In this document: positions 5,225 through 13,191 of the stretch, in pieces
Numbering within the stretch: position 1 is the stretch's first letter
Layout: each line of letters opens with the position of its first letter
Notes under the pieces: model-generated
Databases searched by the model: none
Seen by the model: only the letters and a program-made list of their open reading frames with translations
Told to the model about the DNA's origin: nothing
Position numbers and translations under genes: made by a program
Assembly: GCF_015143595.1 (NCBI RefSeq)
Contig: NZ_WYEU01000001.1
Span: forward strand, 992,001-1,056,000
DNA length: 64,000 nt
Origin: Sneathiella sp. P13V-1
GTDB lineage: Bacteria > Pseudomonadota > Alphaproteobacteria > Sneathiellales > Sneathiellaceae
Direction of reading: 5' to 3'

Positions 5225-5703
5225 ATTTTATTGCTCCCAATATCAGATAAAATCTTGCCTCTATGACAGCAGATTGATGGACTTCAATCAAGTAAGAATT
5301 GTGCCAATTTAGTAGGCGAACCTAGTCTATAATTTCATCATCCTGCTGATTTTGCAGTCATTTCCTGAACCGCGGGTGAAAAAGTGAGGAAAGGGGGTGA
5401 AACTGTCAGAAAGTTCGGATTCACTTCAATCGCTTATAGCTTTGCTATAAAACAACGGAGCGGGTTGAGAAAACTGACTACAAAAGCGTCCTTCGCCTTC
5501 TCAACCGGGTTCAACCTGAAAAGTGAAACGGGACCTTGTGTTTAGCAGTTTTTATTGCACCATATAAAATTCAATAAAAATAATGTATGTTTTTGTTATG
5601 AAGAGGTTGGGCGAGATTTTTTGAACCTTTTTCGGATAGCCAACGACCAAGCATTATCCAAGTTCAATTGCTGCCCTGAAAAAGATCAGGAAGGAAGGAT
5701 AAT
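5225..5703. other. 479-base non-coding region with two inverted repeats
   Basis: Divergent promoter region between the importer operon and the secreted-protein gene. I see no convincing ORF or riboswitch. It contains TTATAGC-TTT-GCTATAA (5434-5450) and, further on, GGTTGAGAA (5463-5471) matching TTCTCAACC (5498-5506). The stretch 5560-5620 is A/T rich and could hold the promoter of the downstream gene. Confidence 0.6.
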
Positions 5704-6975
5704 ATGTTTAAGTATACGTCAAAGATCCTGAAGTTTGGCCTAGTAGCCTCTACAGTTTTAAGCACTGGTTCCGCGGTGGCGGCATCGGCACAGTATTCCG
5801 AATATATTGAGAGCATCTCTTTTGAGAGAAAAGCAGGCGTTCATATCGATGTTGTGTTGGAGAATGTCTCCCCAAACAAACATGTGGATAATGTCAAAAT
5901 CTTTCCAAAATCAGCCAATATACCAATCGAGTTTGATGGAACGGTAAGGTGTGAAAAAGACCGCAAAGTGGATTATCACGGCGCCAAGCTTTATTTTGGG
6001 GATGTTTCTCTGTTCGTTGACATGATCAATGTCGGTAATGCAGTTGATCTGGGAACATATTTTCCTAGTTACTATGAATGGACAGGAACCAGATGGGCAA
6101 ATGAATCTGGCAATAATGAAGCGTTTAATCTCTCGCTACTGACTGTTAAAAACCTGCCTGCCAATCTGCGTATTGACCCGGTAGCGGAGCTTAACAAAAA
6201 ACTGCAGGCCCATATGGCAGGTGGTAAAAGCAAGGCTTCCTTCTATCAGAAAGAACAGTTTATTGAACTCACCCGTCCGGTGACCCTTGCGGCGGCCTGT
6301 GAGAAATATATTTCTGCGGGGAAAGTTCCAAAAAAATGGGGATATAGAACTGCGAATGTCAAATTTGTCATTCGGTACGCGGGTGATCCCGAGGTTAACG
6401 AAACAGGAAAACTCAATCCGGTGCTAGGTAACAACCAGCCGGGGGGTGGAAATATTAATCAGAACTTGCCCTTGCAATTGACGGAAGCAACCTTCCAACC
6501 AAATATACCTCATTATATCGGCAAATGTGTGCCTAATCAGGATCCTAAAATCCGCTTTAACTTCAAAGGAAGCGGAAAGGGTAGCATCCAGTTTATCATC
6601 GAAGATGGCAGCAGCCCGGTCTACTCAACTCCTGTGATCGCCTATGATTCAAAAAGCCAGCATAATCGCTATCATGATTTCGACTATCCTTTGAAAGCCA
6701 AGATGGCGCAGAAAGCGGCTTGGAAAGTGGTCAACCAAACCATCAACCACAATCTTAAGATCCGAGCGAAGGTAAAAACGGCAGGTAGCAATGATTGGGG
6801 ACCTTATCAAAACTTCGGTCAGGCAGTGTGGAAGCATCGTTGCACACCACAAACGACTGTCCCAGGGTCCAACGGCGGAAAAGTATTCAACCCTCAAAAC
6901 TCAAACCCCGGAGACAAGCTGCAAATTCAGTTGAACAACACCTCTCCAAAGCCAGCGCGTAAAAGTAGTGACTAG
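5704..6975 (+). CDS. Secreted protein of unknown function
   Basis: 423 residues that I do not recognise. A signal peptide covers about residues 1-29 (lysine start, hydrophobic core, ending AVAASA), so the protein is exported. The body is rich in beta-prone, polar sequence; four or five cysteines outside the signal peptide could form disulfides (in VRCEKDRK, LAAACEKY, YIGKCVPNQ and KHRCTPQ). A glycine/asparagine-rich linker around residue 240 (NQPGGGNINQN) divides it into two parts, and the C-terminal tail is again Asn/Pro/Gly rich. No membrane anchor or sortase signal is seen. AGGAAGG lies 5-10 bases before ATG, a strong ribosome-binding site. It precedes the barrel/sigma/subtilase set by 145 bases, separated by a hairpin, so it may be a separate unit of the same surface system. 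Confidence 0.75.
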   Translation: MFKYTSKILKFGLVASTVLSTGSAVAASAQYSEYIESISFERKAGVHIDVVLENVSPNKHVDNVKIFPKSANIPIEFDGTVRCEKDRKVDYHGAKLYFGDVSLFVDMINVGNAVDLGTYFPSYYEWTGTRWANESGNNEAFNLSLLTVKNLPANLRIDPVAELNKKLQAHMAGGKSKASFYQKEQFIELTRPVTLAAACEKYISAGKVPKKWGYRTANVKFVIRYAGDPEVNETGKLNPVLGNNQPGGGNINQNLPLQLTEATFQPNIPHYIGKCVPNQDPKIRFNFKGSGKGSIQFIIEDGSSPVYSTPVIAYDSKSQHNRYHDFDYPLKAKMAQKAAWKVVNQTINHNLKIRAKVKTAGSNDWGPYQNFGQAVWKHRCTPQTTVPGSNGGKVFNPQNSNPGDKLQIQLNNTSPKPARKSSD

Positions 6976-6981
6976 AACAGG

Positions 6982-7009
6982 ATGGGCACCGGAGCGATCC
7001 GGTGCCCAT
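6982..7009 (+). terminator. Perfect 12-bp hairpin with GCGA loop after the secreted-protein gene
   Basis: ATGGGCACCGGA (6982-6993) pairs fully with TCCGGTGCCCAT (6998-7009) around a GCGA tetraloop. No T-tract follows, so it may act as an mRNA 3' end protector or a factor-aided terminator rather than a classical intrinsic one. Confidence 0.55.
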
Positions 7010-7120: not shown

Positions 7121-9184
7121 GTGGATGGGGAAGTGGGGATTTTCTTGAGACATGAAAAAAGGCAAAGGCGTCTTTGGGCGTCGTCTGTTGCTTTGTCTGT
7201 TTTTCTTCTCCCGGCTTATGCTCAGGCAGAGATTAACTGGCCAGAAACTATCTCCGCGACAGGTGAAACTGGTCAGTTTGTTATTGCCCTTGATACGACT
7301 TCTGATGAGTGGGGGGCACGCACTGAAAATCTGATTATCGAGATTGATAATGTCGATGTTACCGAGCTGGTCGCTTTTACCCCTGCGGGTTTCCGTTATG
7401 AAGTTCTGCAGCCCCTTAAAGTGGGTCTGCATACGCTGAAGATTTACGAGGCGGATCAGGCTGGGGATTATCAATTGGTGCGGGAGTATCAGTTTGAAGC
7501 AACCGCGGATCAGGCCGGTGTGGCGAGCGGCGGATCGCTCACCCTTGAAAGCGATAACAGCCTCGAGATTTCCCAACGACTGTTTGAGACAAATATCACC
7601 TCATCCATTGACGATACAACAGCGTCGGGTGCGGGGAACACCTCTATTCGATATGAGAACGGTGGTTGGTCGCTGAATATCAACAGTAATTATTTCCTCG
7701 AAAGCGAAGAAGAGATTTCCCAGACAGGAAACGAATTTGATCTTGGGGAATATGACGCGCGTCTTGCCTATAGCGGCGATGGATATGGGGCCGAAGTAAA
7801 TCTGGGTCATCATGACGTGGGACTGGAAAGCCTCGCGTTTTCAGGTTTCAACAGACGGGGTGTCTCCTTAAAGACTAGTTTTCTGGATGATGCCATTCAG
7901 ATAACCGGGTTTAGCCTGTCCAGTGATAGCCTTGCGGGTGTGGATGATATTTCAGGGCAAAAAGAAGACAGCGGATATGTAGCCGGCGGTGCCGTTGCGA
8001 TCCGGCCTCTCTGGAATGAGATCGGCAAGATTGAGCTCACGGGTGTCTATTTTGATTCCAAGGGCGGGGAAGCTGATTTTGGCAGTGGGGGTGGTCTTGG
8101 TGTTGATGCGGCCCCCAAAGGGCAAGGGGCAGCGCTGATTGCAGATACCCTCTGGTATGAGGACCGTCTTCGGGTTCGCGGGGAATACGCCTATTCCAAT
8201 ATGGATCTGGATGGGGATGACGCCGCGCTGGATAAAGATAGTGCCAACGCACATGCCTACTCCCTTGATTATGATCTGATTAGGGATGACGGGACACATG
8301 ACACACCCACATCTTTAAAGATTGGCGCTAGATACGAGCGGATTGATACCTATTATTACAGTCTGGCTAATAGTGGTCTTGCCACGGACCGTGATGGGTT
8401 CACCGCTTATGCCAATATGTATTACGGGTCTTTTAACCTGAACGCCTTGTCGTCCGTATTCGTGAATAACGTTGATGATCATGAAGATCTGGCTACGGAT
8501 CGGGTGATTACTGCGTCGCTTGACGGCAGCTACAGTTTTGATCCGCAGGTAAACGAAGAAGGGGAGATCGGCTGGCTCGGTACCCCATTTATGGGCTTTG
8601 GCGTCAATTATATGGATGCCAATAGGGTGGATACCCCTGTTGGATATCTGGGGGATGATACCAACAATCACAGCGGAACCCTTTATTTTAATTTTGGCTC
8701 TTCCTATGAAACCTGGAACTGGCAGCTTGGATATAATCATGCCCTGTTTGTGGATGACACCAATGTGTCCTCAGATACAGCCAATGATCTGATTGATCTT
8801 AGCGCGTACTGGAATGTTTCAGATTACACCAGCCTCTCTGTTGGGGCACAGCTCAACAGGTATGAGCAGAAAGCGGATAGTGAACGTACCTATAGTGTTT
8901 CAGGCAATCTTGGACTGCAAACAGCCTTCATTCCCGACGTTCTTAACGCACGACTTGATTATAATATGAACCTTTCATCAGGCAGCAACGACATACCAGA
9001 TAGACACCTTCTGGCAACAGAGGTGGAATGGACTTTAATTCCTGCTGAAATCAATAGCGCCGGTGTTGCGCTGGCTTTCCGCGGGGCGATGGAGAAACAA
9101 CATGGTAATGAAGACAGCTCCCTGGACGATGCGGCTTACGAGGGCTTTTTCGTCCTTAAATTCAAAGCGCCGTTATTGTACTGA
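7121..9184 (+). CDS. Outer-membrane beta-barrel protein with N-terminal beta-sandwich domain (novel)
   Basis: About 687 residues, function unknown. After a signal peptide (SSVALSVFLLPAYAQA) comes an Ig-like domain of about 100 residues (INWPETISATGETG to YQFEAT). The rest, from about residue 150, is a long series of alternating hydrophobic/polar strands rich in Tyr, Gly, Asp and Asn, ending in FFVLKFKAPLLY, compatible with a C-terminal outer-membrane strand. This fits a large porin-like or secretion-type barrel, but no plug, TonB box or POTRA repeat is visible. The frame opens at GTG 7121; TTG 7145, preceded by a GGGG stretch and giving a compact signal peptide (RHEKRQRRLWAS), is an equally good start. 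Its stop is two bases from the next gene's ATG, so it leads a tight operon. Confidence 0.75.
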   Translation: MDGEVGIFLRHEKRQRRLWASSVALSVFLLPAYAQAEINWPETISATGETGQFVIALDTTSDEWGARTENLIIEIDNVDVTELVAFTPAGFRYEVLQPLKVGLHTLKIYEADQAGDYQLVREYQFEATADQAGVASGGSLTLESDNSLEISQRLFETNITSSIDDTTASGAGNTSIRYENGGWSLNINSNYFLESEEEISQTGNEFDLGEYDARLAYSGDGYGAEVNLGHHDVGLESLAFSGFNRRGVSLKTSFLDDAIQITGFSLSSDSLAGVDDISGQKEDSGYVAGGAVAIRPLWNEIGKIELTGVYFDSKGGEADFGSGGGLGVDAAPKGQGAALIADTLWYEDRLRVRGEYAYSNMDLDGDDAALDKDSANAHAYSLDYDLIRDDGTHDTPTSLKIGARYERIDTYYYSLANSGLATDRDGFTAYANMYYGSFNLNALSSVFVNNVDDHEDLATDRVITASLDGSYSFDPQVNEEGEIGWLGTPFMGFGVNYMDANRVDTPVGYLGDDTNNHSGTLYFNFGSSYETWNWQLGYNHALFVDDTNVSSDTANDLIDLSAYWNVSDYTSLSVGAQLNRYEQKADSERTYSVSGNLGLQTAFIPDVLNARLDYNMNLSSGSNDIPDRHLLATEVEWTLIPAEINSAGVALAFRGAMEKQHGNEDSSLDDAAYEGFFVLKFKAPLLY

Positions 9185-9185
9185 T

Positions 9186-10358
9186 ATGCGTAATCTTCAA
9201 TTTGGCTTGCTTGCGATATTTGCGTTCTGTGGTCTGATTGCGCCGCAAAGTGCAAATGCACTCGTGAATTCGGCAACCCCTGTTCCCGCAACCGTGACAG
9301 TTTCCCCCACGGGAGGATCCGTAACGATTACTTGGAGGGTTGTGCATACGATTTCTGCGCCGGCAACAACGGTCACCTCTTCCCCTGACTATCAGTTCAG
9401 GATTGACGGGGTTTTGATCAATACGGTTGCCAAAGTTCTGACCCGGACGACCACTCCGACAGTTGGTGTTCCTGAAACCCTTACCTATACGGAAACTCTT
9501 CCTATTTCTGCGGCAACGGCCATTCAGATTGCCAACGGTAATAACAATTCCACCTTCACCAGAACTTTCAATGATGGCGGGGGTGCGCAAACGGCTGTGG
9601 CCCGTGTCATTGTGGGCGGCGCAACGGGAGAGCTGTCGATCAATCGCATTGATCTTAGTTTCGAAAACGGAACGAAAACCAAGATCATTAATCAAAGCGA
9701 TCAGCTGCATGCCATCGCAGATGTATCATATCGTGCGCGTGGTTTGCTGGAAGCGGAATGGCGCGTTATTGATAGTAACTCCATCCGTGGGGGGCAGTTT
9801 GAGCGGGTGATCGGTCTGTCCAGACATCAGCTTAGCGCGCCGGGCAATGGCCGCATTCGGATTAAAAGTCCGCGCTTGCCGACGGATTTAAGCGGCTTGC
9901 ACCAAGTGCGCCTGTTCATTCGGAGCCCTGAGCTCAGATTTGAAGAGCCGGTCTTACGCTACTATGTCAGTCCTTCTGCTGTAACAGGTGCTGGTAGATT
10001 GCAGCCTATGCAGGTGGTGCAACCATCAGAAAATGCACTTCTTGGGCCTGACCTACAATTCGCATGGTTGTCAGTTCCTGGGGCGGCAGCCTATCAGATC
10101 GAAATTTTCGGCTCTGGCGCGCCTGGTAATCCGGTAGAAAATCTGAGCAAGGCCCCGTTGGTTGTAGGGGCGCTGGATATTGAGAAGCGCTTGGTTGCCG
10201 GGAAGGTAATCCCGGGTGACAAGACAGCAACTGTTCTGGCCCGTACCACTTTCCAGCATCTGGAGCATGGACGTGAGTATCTGTGGCGGATCAGGGCCAT
10301 CAATGACAACGGAAATGTGCTGTCTCAATCTGCTTTGAGAAAAATCAGGTTCCCTTAA
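9186..10358 (+). CDS. Secreted beta-sandwich (FN3-like) protein of unknown function
   Basis: 390 residues starting at ATG 9186, directly after the barrel gene's stop; the longer frame upstream is only an overlap into that gene. A signal peptide (LLAIFAFCGLIAPQSANA) is followed by a region rich in Thr/Val/Pro (about 30-150), a middle beta-rich region, and a C-terminal part (about 285-390) with a pattern of fibronectin-type domains: DLQFAWLSVPGAAAYQIEIF then EYLWRIRAINDNGN. The likely location is periplasm or cell surface. The tight junction (translation restart, no clear ribosome-binding site) suggests it is made together with the barrel and may be its partner or cargo. I cannot name a function. 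Confidence 0.75.
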   Translation: MRNLQFGLLAIFAFCGLIAPQSANALVNSATPVPATVTVSPTGGSVTITWRVVHTISAPATTVTSSPDYQFRIDGVLINTVAKVLTRTTTPTVGVPETLTYTETLPISAATAIQIANGNNNSTFTRTFNDGGGAQTAVARVIVGGATGELSINRIDLSFENGTKTKIINQSDQLHAIADVSYRARGLLEAEWRVIDSNSIRGGQFERVIGLSRHQLSAPGNGRIRIKSPRLPTDLSGLHQVRLFIRSPELRFEEPVLRYYVSPSAVTGAGRLQPMQVVQPSENALLGPDLQFAWLSVPGAAAYQIEIFGSGAPGNPVENLSKAPLVVGALDIEKRLVAGKVIPGDKTATVLARTTFQHLEHGREYLWRIRAINDNGNVLSQSALRKIRFP

Positions 10359-10396
10359 TTAAGGGCGCTACAGGATCCGTATGGGGATAATTCCAC

Positions 10397-10954
10397 ATGG
10401 AAATGAATGGACCCTCAGATATTGAACTTATCGAAAGGATCGCCCGTCAGGAACGGGCGGCCTTTGATACGTTTTACAGGCGTCATGAAAGACGTCTCTA
10501 TCATTTTATCCTAAAAAAAATGAACGATCCGTCGGAGGCCTACGACATACTCCATGAAGTCTTTATGGAAATCTGGCGAAAAGCAGATCGGTTCGAAGGC
10601 AGATCAAAGGTGAGCACCTGGTTTTTCGGGATCGCCTTTAACAAGTCAGTGGACCGCCTGCGCAAAAAGATGCCAGACCAATTTCCTGAAGATGAAGATA
10701 TGGATATTGAGGATGAAGAGGTTTTAAATCCGATGGAGTTGGTTTCGGCAACAGAAGAAGCAACATTGATTGCAAAATGCGTTGAAAAGCTTGGGGAAGC
10801 TCAGCGCGCTGTTGTTCAGTTGGCTTTTTACGAAGATATGTCCTACCCGGAGATTGCCAAGGTTATTGAGCGTCCGGAAGGAACCGTAAAGACCCGCATA
10901 TTCCACGCCAAGCAGGCCTTAAAGCTCTGCATCTCTAAATTTGCAGGAGTATGA
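10397..10954 (+). CDS. ECF-type RNA polymerase sigma factor
   Basis: 185 residues with the two ECF domains. Region 2 (about 12-85) includes FYRRHERRLYHFILKKM and the -10 recognition/melting segment EVFMEIWRKADRFEGRSK-VSTWFFGIAFNK; region 4 (about 120-180) shows LGEAQRAVVQLAFYEDMSYPEIAKVI and PEGTVKTRIFHAKQAL, the -35 recognition helix-turn-helix. A short acidic linker (DEDMDIEDEE) joins them. The adjacent gene, overlapping by its ribosome-binding region, encodes a membrane anti-sigma factor, so this is a classic sigma/anti-sigma pair. The probable regulon includes the neighbouring barrel and subtilase genes; this is inference. Confidence 0.95.
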   Translation: MEMNGPSDIELIERIARQERAAFDTFYRRHERRLYHFILKKMNDPSEAYDILHEVFMEIWRKADRFEGRSKVSTWFFGIAFNKSVDRLRKKMPDQFPEDEDMDIEDEEVLNPMELVSATEEATLIAKCVEKLGEAQRAVVQLAFYEDMSYPEIAKVIERPEGTVKTRIFHAKQALKLCISKFAGV

Positions 10955-10956
10955 CC

Positions 10957-11562
10957 ATGACTGAGGTGGATAAAAATCTGGATCAGCTCTTACCCTTCTA
11001 CGCCAACGGGACGCTTGAAGGGGCCGAGAAAGAAGCTGTAGAGGCCCGATTAAGCGAAGACGCAGATTTCAGAGCCGAGCTTGCCTATTTGAAAGCCTTA
11101 CGTGCAAACATCCAAAGTGAAGAAATTGTCGGTAGTCCCGGTGAGTTGGGCTTGAAACGGCTCCATAAGGAGATGGACGCTGAGGATAGGATTTCAGCAC
11201 CACCTGCTCCGGCAAATGACAACAGCTTCTGGCGTCTGACAGCGATCGCTGCTGCCATTGCGCTGGTGATATCCGTTGGCATGCAAGTTTACGGGACTGT
11301 GTCAGGCGAGGATACTTATACGACGGCATCTGGGACCCAACAGATTGACGGGCCGGTGTTCCAGATCTTCTTTAAAGATGACAGCTCTGAAGTGGATATT
11401 AGAAGCTTGCTTCTGAAAGAAGGGCTGACGATCGTCGAAGGCCCCACGGAAATCGGTTATTACCGGATTGCCTCCCGGGCGAAACTTGACAATCAGGCGC
11501 TTGGCGCATTGTTGAAACGTTTATCTGCCTCCCCTCTCATTCAAGAGGCCCTTCAGGAGTAG
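10957..11562 (+). CDS. Membrane-anchored anti-sigma factor with protease-propeptide-like periplasmic domain
   Basis: 201 residues. The cytoplasmic part (about 1-88) is the helical anti-sigma type (LDQLLPFYANGTLEGAEKEAVEARL) but lacks the His-x3-Cys-x2-Cys zinc ligands of many such proteins. One transmembrane helix lies at about 93-113 (LTAIAAAIALVISVGMQVYG). The periplasmic part (about 134-201) has the pattern FQIFFKDDSSEVDIRSLL ... IVEGPTEIGYYRIA ... LLKRLSASPLIQEA, two beta-alpha-beta halves like a subtilisin propeptide (I9-like) fold. I chose ATG 10957 because GCAGGAG lies 7 bases upstream; ATG 10951 overlaps the sigma stop but is too close to that site. The secreted subtilase begins nine bases after it. 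Confidence 0.85.
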   Translation: MTEVDKNLDQLLPFYANGTLEGAEKEAVEARLSEDADFRAELAYLKALRANIQSEEIVGSPGELGLKRLHKEMDAEDRISAPPAPANDNSFWRLTAIAAAIALVISVGMQVYGTVSGEDTYTTASGTQQIDGPVFQIFFKDDSSEVDIRSLLLKEGLTIVEGPTEIGYYRIASRAKLDNQALGALLKRLSASPLIQEALQE

Positions 11563-11571
11563 GAGGTCCAG

Positions 11572-13191
11572 ATGACGCACCTTTTGCTCAAAATGATGTT
11601 GGTGTCAGCCTTATGGAGTTGGTCGTGTGCAGCAAATGCGCAAACCGCGCCAACGGATCCTGCAGGCTCTCCTTCCAGTTCGGTGCCGGGAACAAGCACT
11701 CCGCGTCCTGGCACTGCGCCTCTAACTTTGCCTGCTCGCCGCGTTCTTGGTGGGGCGTCCCTCAAACCCGCTCAGTTTTTGCGGTTTGAAGGAAGTTGCC
11801 TGCCCCCTCAAGGGATCTGGCGTCTTGTGGGGTCAAATTTTGCAGAAGGCCGAAGCACAGCCTATCGGTTATATCTGAAATCCAGTAAGGGAGATAAAAA
11901 AGCGCTGCCAATCTCGTCGGTGCGAAAAAACGTTATTTCCAGTCGTATCTCGTCATCTGATTTTCTGGAGAAGGGTCAAAAATACTGGTTCGAGCTTTAT
12001 GTGGGTCAACAGATTGTTGAAGGCCCCGGCAATCGGCTTCGCCTCGAAAGATGCACAGATGAAACCCCTTTGCTTTCCCCTTCGCGTGAGAGGGAATATC
12101 TACCCCGCGAAATTTTGGTCCAGTTACCGTTTAGCGCCTTTAGTGAGGCTGAGAAGCAAAGCATCGTTAGCCAGTTGCAAAGCTTAGGATACACCATCGC
12201 TCGCGATGAAACACTGGAGGTGCTGGAGGTTTATTTGCTCCGCATCGGGACGGGGGCTGGCGCGGATTTACCGTCATTGATCGATGAACTTCGTAACCGA
12301 TATCCTGAAGCGCAAATCGATTTCAACCATATTGCAACATTGGCAAATGGTCGAAAACACTACGGACGCAAATTATCAGGTCTTCCCGTGCCACCGCTTC
12401 AATGCGGGGTGCTGGAGACACTTCAAACACGGGTCGGAATTGTAGATGGCGGGGCAAATCTGAACCACAGTGCGCTGAAATCTGTGCCTAATGTGCATAT
12501 GGCTCGCTTTGGCGATGGTATATCGGCGGGAAGTATCGCAAGTGCTCACGGAACTGCTATTCTCTCTCAGTATAAAGGCGCAGACAAAGAACTGGATCTA
12601 AGGGGTCTGCTACCCAATTCCCATGTGTTTCTGGCAGATGTACTGGATGAGGAAAGCGGTAGTGGTAACAGTTTCACGGTGATAACGGGCCTCAATTGGT
12701 TGGCAAAAAGAAACGTAGATATCGTTTCCATTTCCATGGAGGGGCCGCCCAATCGATTGTTGGAGAAGGTCTTCCAGACGCTGGATCGGCTTGGGGTTTT
12801 TGTGATTGCCGCTGCCGGAAATGGGGGGCACAGGGGAAAGGCTGTCTTTCCCGCAGCATATCCGTCAGTGATCACTGTAACGGCGGTGGGGCCAACAAGG
12901 TCCATTTATGGTAAAGCCAATCAAGGGAGTTTCGTTGATATCGCCGCGCCGGGGTCGAGTATTTGGCTCGCTCGCAAAGACACAGGGGCAAGCTATCAAA
13001 CAGGAACCTCATTTGCGGTTCCTTTTGTCGTTTCAAAAGCGGCGCTGGTGCTTGGGAGTAGATCTAAAGGTTCTGGTTTTACACATACTGATCTGCGGCA
13101 GGCGCTCATACAACATGTGATCGATCTTGGCACAACGGGTCGGGATGATGTTTTTGGCGCTGGACTTGTTCAATTTTTTAATTGTGAATAA
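11572..13191 (+). CDS. Secreted subtilisin-like serine protease (S8 family)
   Basis: 539 residues. The signal peptide ends near residue 23 (SCAANA), followed by a Pro/Ser/Thr linker, a beta-rich domain (about 65-160), a propeptide-like domain (about 177-256, PREILVQLPFSAFSEAEKQ to PEAQIDFNHIA), and the S8 catalytic domain. The triad is intact: Asp292 in GIVDGGANLNH, His326 in SAHGTAILS, Ser480 in GTSFAVPF, with the oxyanion Asn in AAAGNGG. The ribosome-binding site GGAGG directly precedes ATG. It is the last gene of the barrel/sigma set and is followed by a terminator. Likely roles are processing of the surface proteins in the set or cleavage of the anti-sigma factor; neither is shown by the sequence. 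Confidence 0.92.
   Translation: MTHLLLKMMLVSALWSWSCAANAQTAPTDPAGSPSSSVPGTSTPRPGTAPLTLPARRVLGGASLKPAQFLRFEGSCLPPQGIWRLVGSNFAEGRSTAYRLYLKSSKGDKKALPISSVRKNVISSRISSSDFLEKGQKYWFELYVGQQIVEGPGNRLRLERCTDETPLLSPSREREYLPREILVQLPFSAFSEAEKQSIVSQLQSLGYTIARDETLEVLEVYLLRIGTGAGADLPSLIDELRNRYPEAQIDFNHIATLANGRKHYGRKLSGLPVPPLQCGVLETLQTRVGIVDGGANLNHSALKSVPNVHMARFGDGISAGSIASAHGTAILSQYKGADKELDLRGLLPNSHVFLADVLDEESGSGNSFTVITGLNWLAKRNVDIVSISMEGPPNRLLEKVFQTLDRLGVFVIAAAGNGGHRGKAVFPAAYPSVITVTAVGPTRSIYGKANQGSFVDIAAPGSSIWLARKDTGASYQTGTSFAVPFVVSKAALVLGSRSKGSGFTHTDLRQALIQHVIDLGTTGRDDVFGAGLVQFFNCE

Follow-up and report, generated by a model that had tools for sequence, protein, structure and literature searches.

We asked what role is served by a locus of Sneathiella sp. 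P13V-1 that places genes for an extracytoplasmic function (ECF) sigma factor and its membrane anti-sigma factor beside those for an outer-membrane barrel (BARREL), an FN3-like exported protein, and a subtilase. The locus lies in the 64-kb stretch of DNA analyzed here (the window, whose positions serve as coordinates throughout) and comprises five codirectional, tightly packed open frames on the forward strand, with a sixth gene of the same set, SECR, upstream (Table 1). An initial annotation, made from the sequence alone, had proposed a surface-signaling system in which protease action releases the sigma factor. Our reading, to which we give a probability of about 0.5, is that the locus is a sigma-controlled protein secretion and surface module; most likely, the subtilase acts on the anti-sigma factor as its ligand or site-1 protease, and SECR-type cargo is exported or displayed by means of the barrel and its FN3-like partner. 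A predicted regulon dispersed over the genome and a widely distributed sigma/anti-sigma/subtilase core both go beyond that annotation.

The frames and their order are as first described, with intergenic gaps of 1 and 38 bases, a 4-base overlap between the sigma and anti-sigma genes, and a gap of 9 bases; the overlap follows from an anti-sigma start at 10951, and the 2-base gap given initially holds for the second ATG. The sigma factor has regions 2 and 4 only (Sigma70_r2, E = 2e-15; Sigma70_r4_2, E = 5e-15) and an adjoining anti-sigma gene, as is typical of ECF sigma factors, and the subtilase belongs to family S8 (Peptidase_S8, PF00082, E = 5e-24). Its catalytic residues D292, H326, and S480 and oxyanion residue N417 are intact in the window and in closer relatives; Desulfobulbaceae subtilases have a less canonical Ser motif. 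Scans of the locus for sigma-70 and terminator consensus sequences gave chance-level results.

Conservation and distribution of the locus

Linkage of these genes is not due to chance, because their order is kept down to 20 to 22% barrel identity in Gammaproteobacteria and because barrel and subtilase co-occur within the genus. (Here, L numbers denote loci and G numbers genomes; the genus sample comprises 25 genomes, 8 carrying the sigma factor and 17 others.) The sigma factor matches contigs at 70 to 83% identity, two of them labeled Sneathiella or Sneathiellales, and across syntenic loci its identity ranges from 83 to 47%. The order barrel, FN3, sigma, anti-sigma, subtilase is retained in L016/L036 (L016 being a contig carried by G024, of the same genus as the window), L031, L032, and L033, in two other alphaproteobacterial families (L055, L056), in a gammaproteobacterial metagenome-assembled genome (L020), and in L041 (same phylum, another class); L057 has barrel, FN3, and sigma genes with the subtilase displaced. 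The unlinking in close relatives that would speak against a single system did not occur. Barrel genes are present in 7 of the 25 genus genomes, and the identical seven carry a full-length subtilase; in G008, a contig ending at sigma carries the sigma, anti-sigma, and subtilase genes, and G021 has a lone subtilase. The locus is found at several chromosomal positions, a pattern suggestive of transfer or of repeated loss.

The sigma/anti-sigma/subtilase core also occurs without the barrel, in Nitrospirales (L021 to L025) and, more remotely, in Desulfobulbaceae. An anti-sigma profile matched 36 of 398 sampled proteobacterial genomes, and a related sigma gene and a subtilase gene stand beside the anti-sigma gene in 18 of the 20 proteobacterial neighborhoods inspected. 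Among variants of the core, L095 (4354 to 6811) has the anti-sigma gene inverted between sigma and subtilase, with the trio still together, and in L107 (4950 to 6391) a caspase-like gene adjoins a prodomain-like anti-sigma relative in place of the subtilase. Some core-only loci are followed by a gene for a secreted RTX-repeat-like protein (L021:11068-11970, L022:10746-11702, L024:8960-9862, and L095:6887-8554), and the Nitrospirales loci L022 and L024 encode a PEP-CTERM-like protein upstream.

The initial annotation had suggested that the secreted gene at 5704 might belong to the set. Three other genomes place it there, each with a SECR homolog immediately before the barrel gene (L016, 50% identity; L055, 42%; and L056, 38%, with one further secreted gene in between), and on this comparative evidence the six linked genes form one unit. 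SECR-family genes are found in 7 of the 8 sigma-carrying genus genomes and, weakly, in 1 of the 17 others; SECR has no significant match in Pfam or the Protein Data Bank (PDB). The hairpin that follows SECR has equivalently placed counterparts in L036, L055, and L056, which measure 11 to 17 bp and differ in sequence, and in all four loci this strong hairpin stands after the last upstream secreted gene and just before the barrel gene. It is possibly an attenuator or mRNA stabilizer, through which more secreted product than barrel product could be made. The C termini of SECR (window positions 6930 to 6972) and its homologs share a Pro/basic tail (SPKPARKSSD, TPKPARQSNN, QPKPARKIN), which in L055 and L056 reads KPQR-PLGK...KPKR and possibly represents a sorting or processing signal.

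A candidate promoter motif probably links the sigma factor to secreted proteins

The motif TTGAAC-N17-CG[A/T]C is common to upstream regions within the locus family. A loose form gave 27 matches in the whole genome versus 40 for a reversed control; the only informative form is preceded by T and has C or T after TTGAAC. The window holds just two exact matches, one at 5621 and one inside the sigma gene. Matches within sigma and barrel genes recur in relatives and track conserved codons, and therefore we did not count them as promoters. The exact motif precedes SECR in the window and in L016, L055, and L056, stands directly before the barrel gene in L032 and L033, and, in L017, L020, L055, and L056, occurs before other genes next to the locus that encode secreted proteins; in the core-only loci L096 and L103 it lies just before sigma. 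Given the candidate promoter at 5621 and the direct barrel promoters predicted in L032 and L033, it is very probable that genes of this same locus are under the control of the sigma factor, as initially predicted from the habits of ECF pairs.

The predicted regulon extends beyond the locus. The genome containing the window has five T-preceded copies of the motif, situated before SECR, before three other secreted-protein genes, and at one uncertain site. Secreted proteins of 478, 141, and 185 amino acids (aa) are among the predicted targets. The 478-aa dispersed protein is a homolog of a 380-aa protein clustered at the L056 locus (3e-37), the 141-aa protein is a homolog of a 161-aa protein at the same locus (2e-9), and the dispersed CARDB protein is homologous to the product encoded next after the L017 subtilase (3e-81). 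The fifth copy (G000:C2:558914), which lies 154 bp before a gene for an exported protein of beta-lactamase fold, is uncertain because it extends into the start of a divergent frame. In L056 (12946 to 17077), SECR and the 380-aa, 161-aa, and CARDB-like 202-aa proteins are encoded together beside the locus, each of the four families with its own motif copy, one of these on the opposite strand; the same families are dispersed in the window genome. Elsewhere, the motif precedes a gene right after the L020 subtilase for an 849-aa Calx-beta protein with a GlyGly-CTERM-like tail (L020:9793-12349), and it lies directly upstream of the L095 RTX-repeat-like gene.

Across the genus, motif sites average 4.0 per sigma-carrying genome versus 0.6 per other genome (Mann-Whitney P = 8e-5). 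Sigma-carrying genomes have 17 of their 22 inspected sites in intergenic positions, mostly with a gene for an exported protein next, versus 0 of 10 in the others, where all fall within reading frames (Fisher P = 4.7e-5, computed by hand with the ambiguous C2:558914 site not counted as intergenic). The motif lies 31 to 99 bases upstream of 10 of the 14 SECR-family genes in the genus (with a 16- or 17-base spacer, and in one case A for the first T), and the SECR-family gene in a genome without the sigma factor has no motif upstream. Several observations weigh against this interpretation. The reversed control is also somewhat more common in sigma-carrying genomes (1.75 versus 0.76, P = 0.013), and kinship among genomes, which are not independent, weakens the motif P values, with their direction clear. 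In the window, no exact motif precedes the barrel gene, which the hairpin separates from the predicted promoter at 5621, and G013, G005, and G004 also lack an exact motif before the barrel. The motif might instead be read by a different ECF sigma factor whose presence only coincides with that of the locus, since the tie between motif and sigma is a correlation and other ECF-like sigma genes are present in these genomes (e.g., L032:1866-2348 and L034:10044-10562). We consider this very unlikely, because several families (L055, L056) have the motif at this very locus, because it stands just before the sigma gene in L096 and L103, and because in genomes lacking this sigma factor every inspected site lies within a reading frame.

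The anti-sigma factor carries a prodomain-like periplasmic domain

The anti-sigma factor matches the NCBIfam antisigma model at an E value of 1e-10, below that model's cutoff. Class I (ZAS) anti-sigma factors are defined by an N-terminal anti-sigma domain with a zinc-binding HxxxCxxC motif; 10 of 18 relatives in the wider set match zf-HC2 (4.9e-12), Nitrospirales members have CxxC, and the window protein lacks the ZAS cysteines and scores below cutoff. Its periplasmic part is conserved (consensus V-F-P-A-E-IR-LL-I-GPS-G-Y). PF22148 (Fervidolysin_NPro-like) matches this family in 10 of 20 members, with a best value of 1.7e-5, and in 3 of 18 members of the wider set; one wider member, in G068, exceeds the curated cutoff in a whole-genome scan. 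PF22148 is rare: a scan of 150 genomes gave 12 matches, 4 of them on core genes (one anti-sigma factor and three partner subtilases). The AlphaFold model of the domain (pLDDT 88) has the prosegment-type order beta-alpha-beta-beta-alpha-beta. Foldseek ranked the subtilisin BPN' prosegment first (1spb_P, TM-score 0.59 to 0.62), closely followed by furin/PC1 prodomains, POIA1, and pro-subtilisin, and VIA-align placed the PC1/3 prodomain first (Z = 8.4).

Alternatively, the domain might have no relation to prodomains and be a ferredoxin-like domain of the usual type, with the likeness due to convergence on a small and common fold. Many unrelated proteins of ferredoxin-like fold, among them ACT, Lrp, and ribosomal proteins, reach scores close to these (Z = 7 to 8), and Foldseek E values are only about 0.02, so that fold alone is no proof of descent. 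The window anti-sigma factor has no PF22148 match, and hhalign comparison of the domain with the partner subtilase prodomain is weak (probability 9%); we therefore do not claim homology between the two. A PDB profile search with the domain gave nothing useful, nor did searches with barrel, FN3-like, and SECR profiles. Convergence nevertheless seems rather unlikely to us, given the PF22148 matches in half of the family and above the curated cutoff in G068, the first rank of subtilisin-family prodomains in both structural searches, and the constant subtilase neighborhood. The combination of sequence matches, fold, and constant neighbor makes a prodomain-like domain with a putative protease-binding role the best reading.

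Such a domain raises the question of what it does with the protease. The subtilase consists of a signal peptide, an extra N-terminal domain, a prodomain, and the catalytic domain; among partner subtilases, PF22148 matches the prodomain in 4 of 21 family members, and the window member is not among these. Prodomains generally fold and inhibit subtilases in trans. On that basis the anti-sigma domain might be a chaperone and inhibitor of the subtilase and no signal receiver, with the subtilase maturing or shedding secreted proteins and general envelope-stress proteases freeing the sigma factor. The exported subtilase with its intact triad, the predicted regulon of secreted proteins, and an M50/RseP-type protease gene elsewhere in the window's genome all agree with such a role. 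The subtilase already has a prodomain region of its own, however, and the caspase-like neighbor that replaces it in L107 hints that the neighboring protease is a signaling part; we judge a chaperone role rather unlikely. As for protease-driven release of the sigma factor, the initial proposal is plausible and is strengthened by the prodomain-like domain, with the cleavage itself still an inference.

The barrel and its FN3-like partner

The AlphaFold model of BARREL (pLDDT 78, pTM 0.64) predicts 26 strands over residues 135 to 682, preceded by an Ig-like domain (about residues 35 to 125) modeled with low confidence. The family is conserved in 11 loci. The window protein has no Pfam or NCBIfam match, and the family has no sequence match in the PDB and, by hidden Markov model (HMM) search, no match to the usher family (PF00577). 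Structural comparison found AlgE over part of the model (Z = 18.8, 304 residues) and, over most of it, usher 9bog_D (Z = 16.7, 377 residues) and MtrB 6r2q_B (Z = 16.2, 429 residues); TM-scores with known large barrels reach at most 0.48 at about 10% identity. FimD/PapC ushers have 24 strands, and MtrB and LptD have 26, so that BARREL resembles these proteins in size and strand number, but it differs from them in its N-terminal Ig-like domain and in the lack of any family match by HMM. Judged from the model, its likeness to known large barrels is generic, and we claim membership in none.

The FN3-like gene adjoins the barrel gene in every sampled locus with a readable adjoining stretch. Seven aligned loci share 30 to 64% identity; the protein has a single weak C-terminal fn3 match (E = 0.004, below cutoff) and no Pfam or NCBIfam family above cutoff, the family has no chaperone match, and no relatives were found in viral contigs. 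Both proteins thus remain without a nameable family, as the initial annotation had noted.

That annotation cast the barrel as a surface sensor. Barrel and FN3-like protein might sense a ligand or the envelope state and signal to the anti-sigma factor in the manner of TonB-dependent signaling, with the secreted proteins as the response: the genes for these two proteins are closely packed, and jointly conserved, with those for sigma and anti-sigma, and the Ig-like domain, if periplasmic, could contact the anti-sigma factor. But no TonB plug, STN, or TonB-receptor domain was detected in 11 barrel homologs (Pfam, E ≤ 1), the anti-sigma factor has no FecR match, and the sigma/anti-sigma/subtilase core lacks the barrel in most genomes. 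L042 (3 to 3495) has a barrel and FN3-like pair followed by flagellar genes, with no sigma gene downstream and with its upstream side ending at the contig edge; it counts against sensing and also against our own reading. We regard sensing by the barrel as unlikely. It is not supported over export, display, or anchoring, a role that fits at least as well because the predicted regulon consists of secreted proteins.

TABLE 1 Features of the locus by window position
Feature	Position	Strand	Basis or remark
Predicted ECF promoter TTGAACCTTTTTCGGATAGCCAACGAC	5621..5647	+	Motif from upstream regions of locus family; 83 bp before 5704 start codon
SECR, 423-aa exported protein, unnamed family	5704..6975	+	Homologs directly upstream of barrel in L016, L055, L056
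Perfect 12-bp RNA hairpin, directly after SECR	6982..7009	+	Fold -25.2 kcal/mol, z -4.3
BARREL, exported outer-membrane protein	7133..9184 (start GTG 7133 or 7121)	+	AlphaFold model, family conservation
FN3-like exported protein, 390 aa	9186..10358 (ATG at 9186)	+	Alignment of 7 loci, weak C-terminal fn3
ECF sigma factor, 185 aa	10397..10954	+	Sigma70_r2, Sigma70_r4_2
Anti-sigma factor (203 aa; single predicted transmembrane helix)	10951..11562	+	NCBIfam antisigma match, family alignments
Anti-sigma periplasmic domain, residues 128-203, subtilase-prodomain-like	11332..11559	+	Model, Foldseek, relatives' PF22148 matches
Subtilase (S8), 539 aa	11572..13191	+	Peptidase_S8; catalytic motifs kept in family
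Subtilase's own prodomain region, residues about 174-262	12091..12357	+	Block conserved before catalytic domain

Upstream of the features listed, region 5380 to 5560 was considered as a genome repeat, and this was ruled out.

Comparison with known systems

The locus is composed of parts of known kinds, namely an ECF/anti-sigma pair and an S8 protease, and by the tests made it is neither a TonB-type nor a chaperone-usher set. It resembles FecI-FecR and other TonB-dependent signaling systems, including VreA-VreI-VreR of Pseudomonas aeruginosa, in placing an ECF sigma factor and membrane anti-sigma factor beside an outer-membrane beta-barrel and in its predicted surface or secreted output; VreI is reported to promote secretion systems and secreted proteins (PMC7035377). 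It differs in its dedicated subtilase, its prodomain-like anti-sigma sensor, its FN3-like partner, and a barrel unrelated by sequence. As in RseA/DegS/RseP, the anti-sigma factor is single-pass, and proteases of two kinds are available, a serine protease in the periplasm and a site-2 protease of the M50 type. The candidate for the site-1 step, however, is here an S8 subtilase encoded within the operon, and the sensor has a likeness to the prodomain of this protease family.

Two further systems show partial likeness. ECF54 sigma factors likewise have a subtilase gene in a conserved context, along with carboxypeptidase and CHAT proteins, but are described as lacking an anti-sigma factor (PMC8999054), whereas the window sigma gene overlaps one; by this published description, the window sigma factor is not of the ECF54 type. 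PorXY-SigP couples an ECF sigma factor to outer-membrane export of secreted proteins by type IX secretion (PMC7712824), and the likeness is one of logic only: the predicted barrel here has 26 strands and comes from a different phylum, no sequence relation was found (no type IX models were run), and no two-component genes were noticed beside the locus. We found no paper that links a subtilase prodomain with an anti-sigma factor or describes this gene combination, in a search that did not cover the main ECF classification, where the context may already be listed.

A model for sigma-controlled secretion

In the secretion and surface module that we favor, the anti-sigma factor of a resting cell would hold the ECF sigma factor at the inner membrane, and its prodomain-fold periplasmic part would serve as a docking or inhibition site, or as a substrate, for the neighboring exported subtilase. 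A change in the envelope or in secreted cargo may then leave free, active subtilase. It would make a first cut in the anti-sigma factor outside the membrane, after which a site-2 protease of the general M50/RseP type would complete the cleavage and release the sigma factor. From the comparative evidence, the released sigma factor is predicted to recognize TTGAACC-N16-CGAC/CGTC and to transcribe SECR and the scattered secreted-protein genes, and in some relatives probably the barrel operon directly as well. Finally, the barrel and its FN3-like partner would export, anchor, or assemble the secreted proteins on the cell surface. A stronger form of this model, in which the anti-sigma factor carries a mimic of the prodomain of its own operon-encoded subtilase, thereby reports the state of protease or cargo, and is wired to a new 26-strand-barrel and FN3-like export or display apparatus with a dispersed cargo regulon, would amount to an undescribed class of envelope control; we offer it tentatively, as a possibility with the odds against it.

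We know of no established mechanism by which most membrane anti-sigma factors sense their signals, and an anti-sigma sensor that resembles the prodomain of a neighboring protease offers a directly testable one. The arrangement is common in Proteobacteria, as judged from the 36 of 398 genomes with a related anti-sigma factor and the subtilase found in 18 of the 20 inspected loci. In the barrel-bearing branch, an unnamed outer-membrane barrel is joined to secreted families with a predicted promoter, so that cargo and machinery can be tested jointly.

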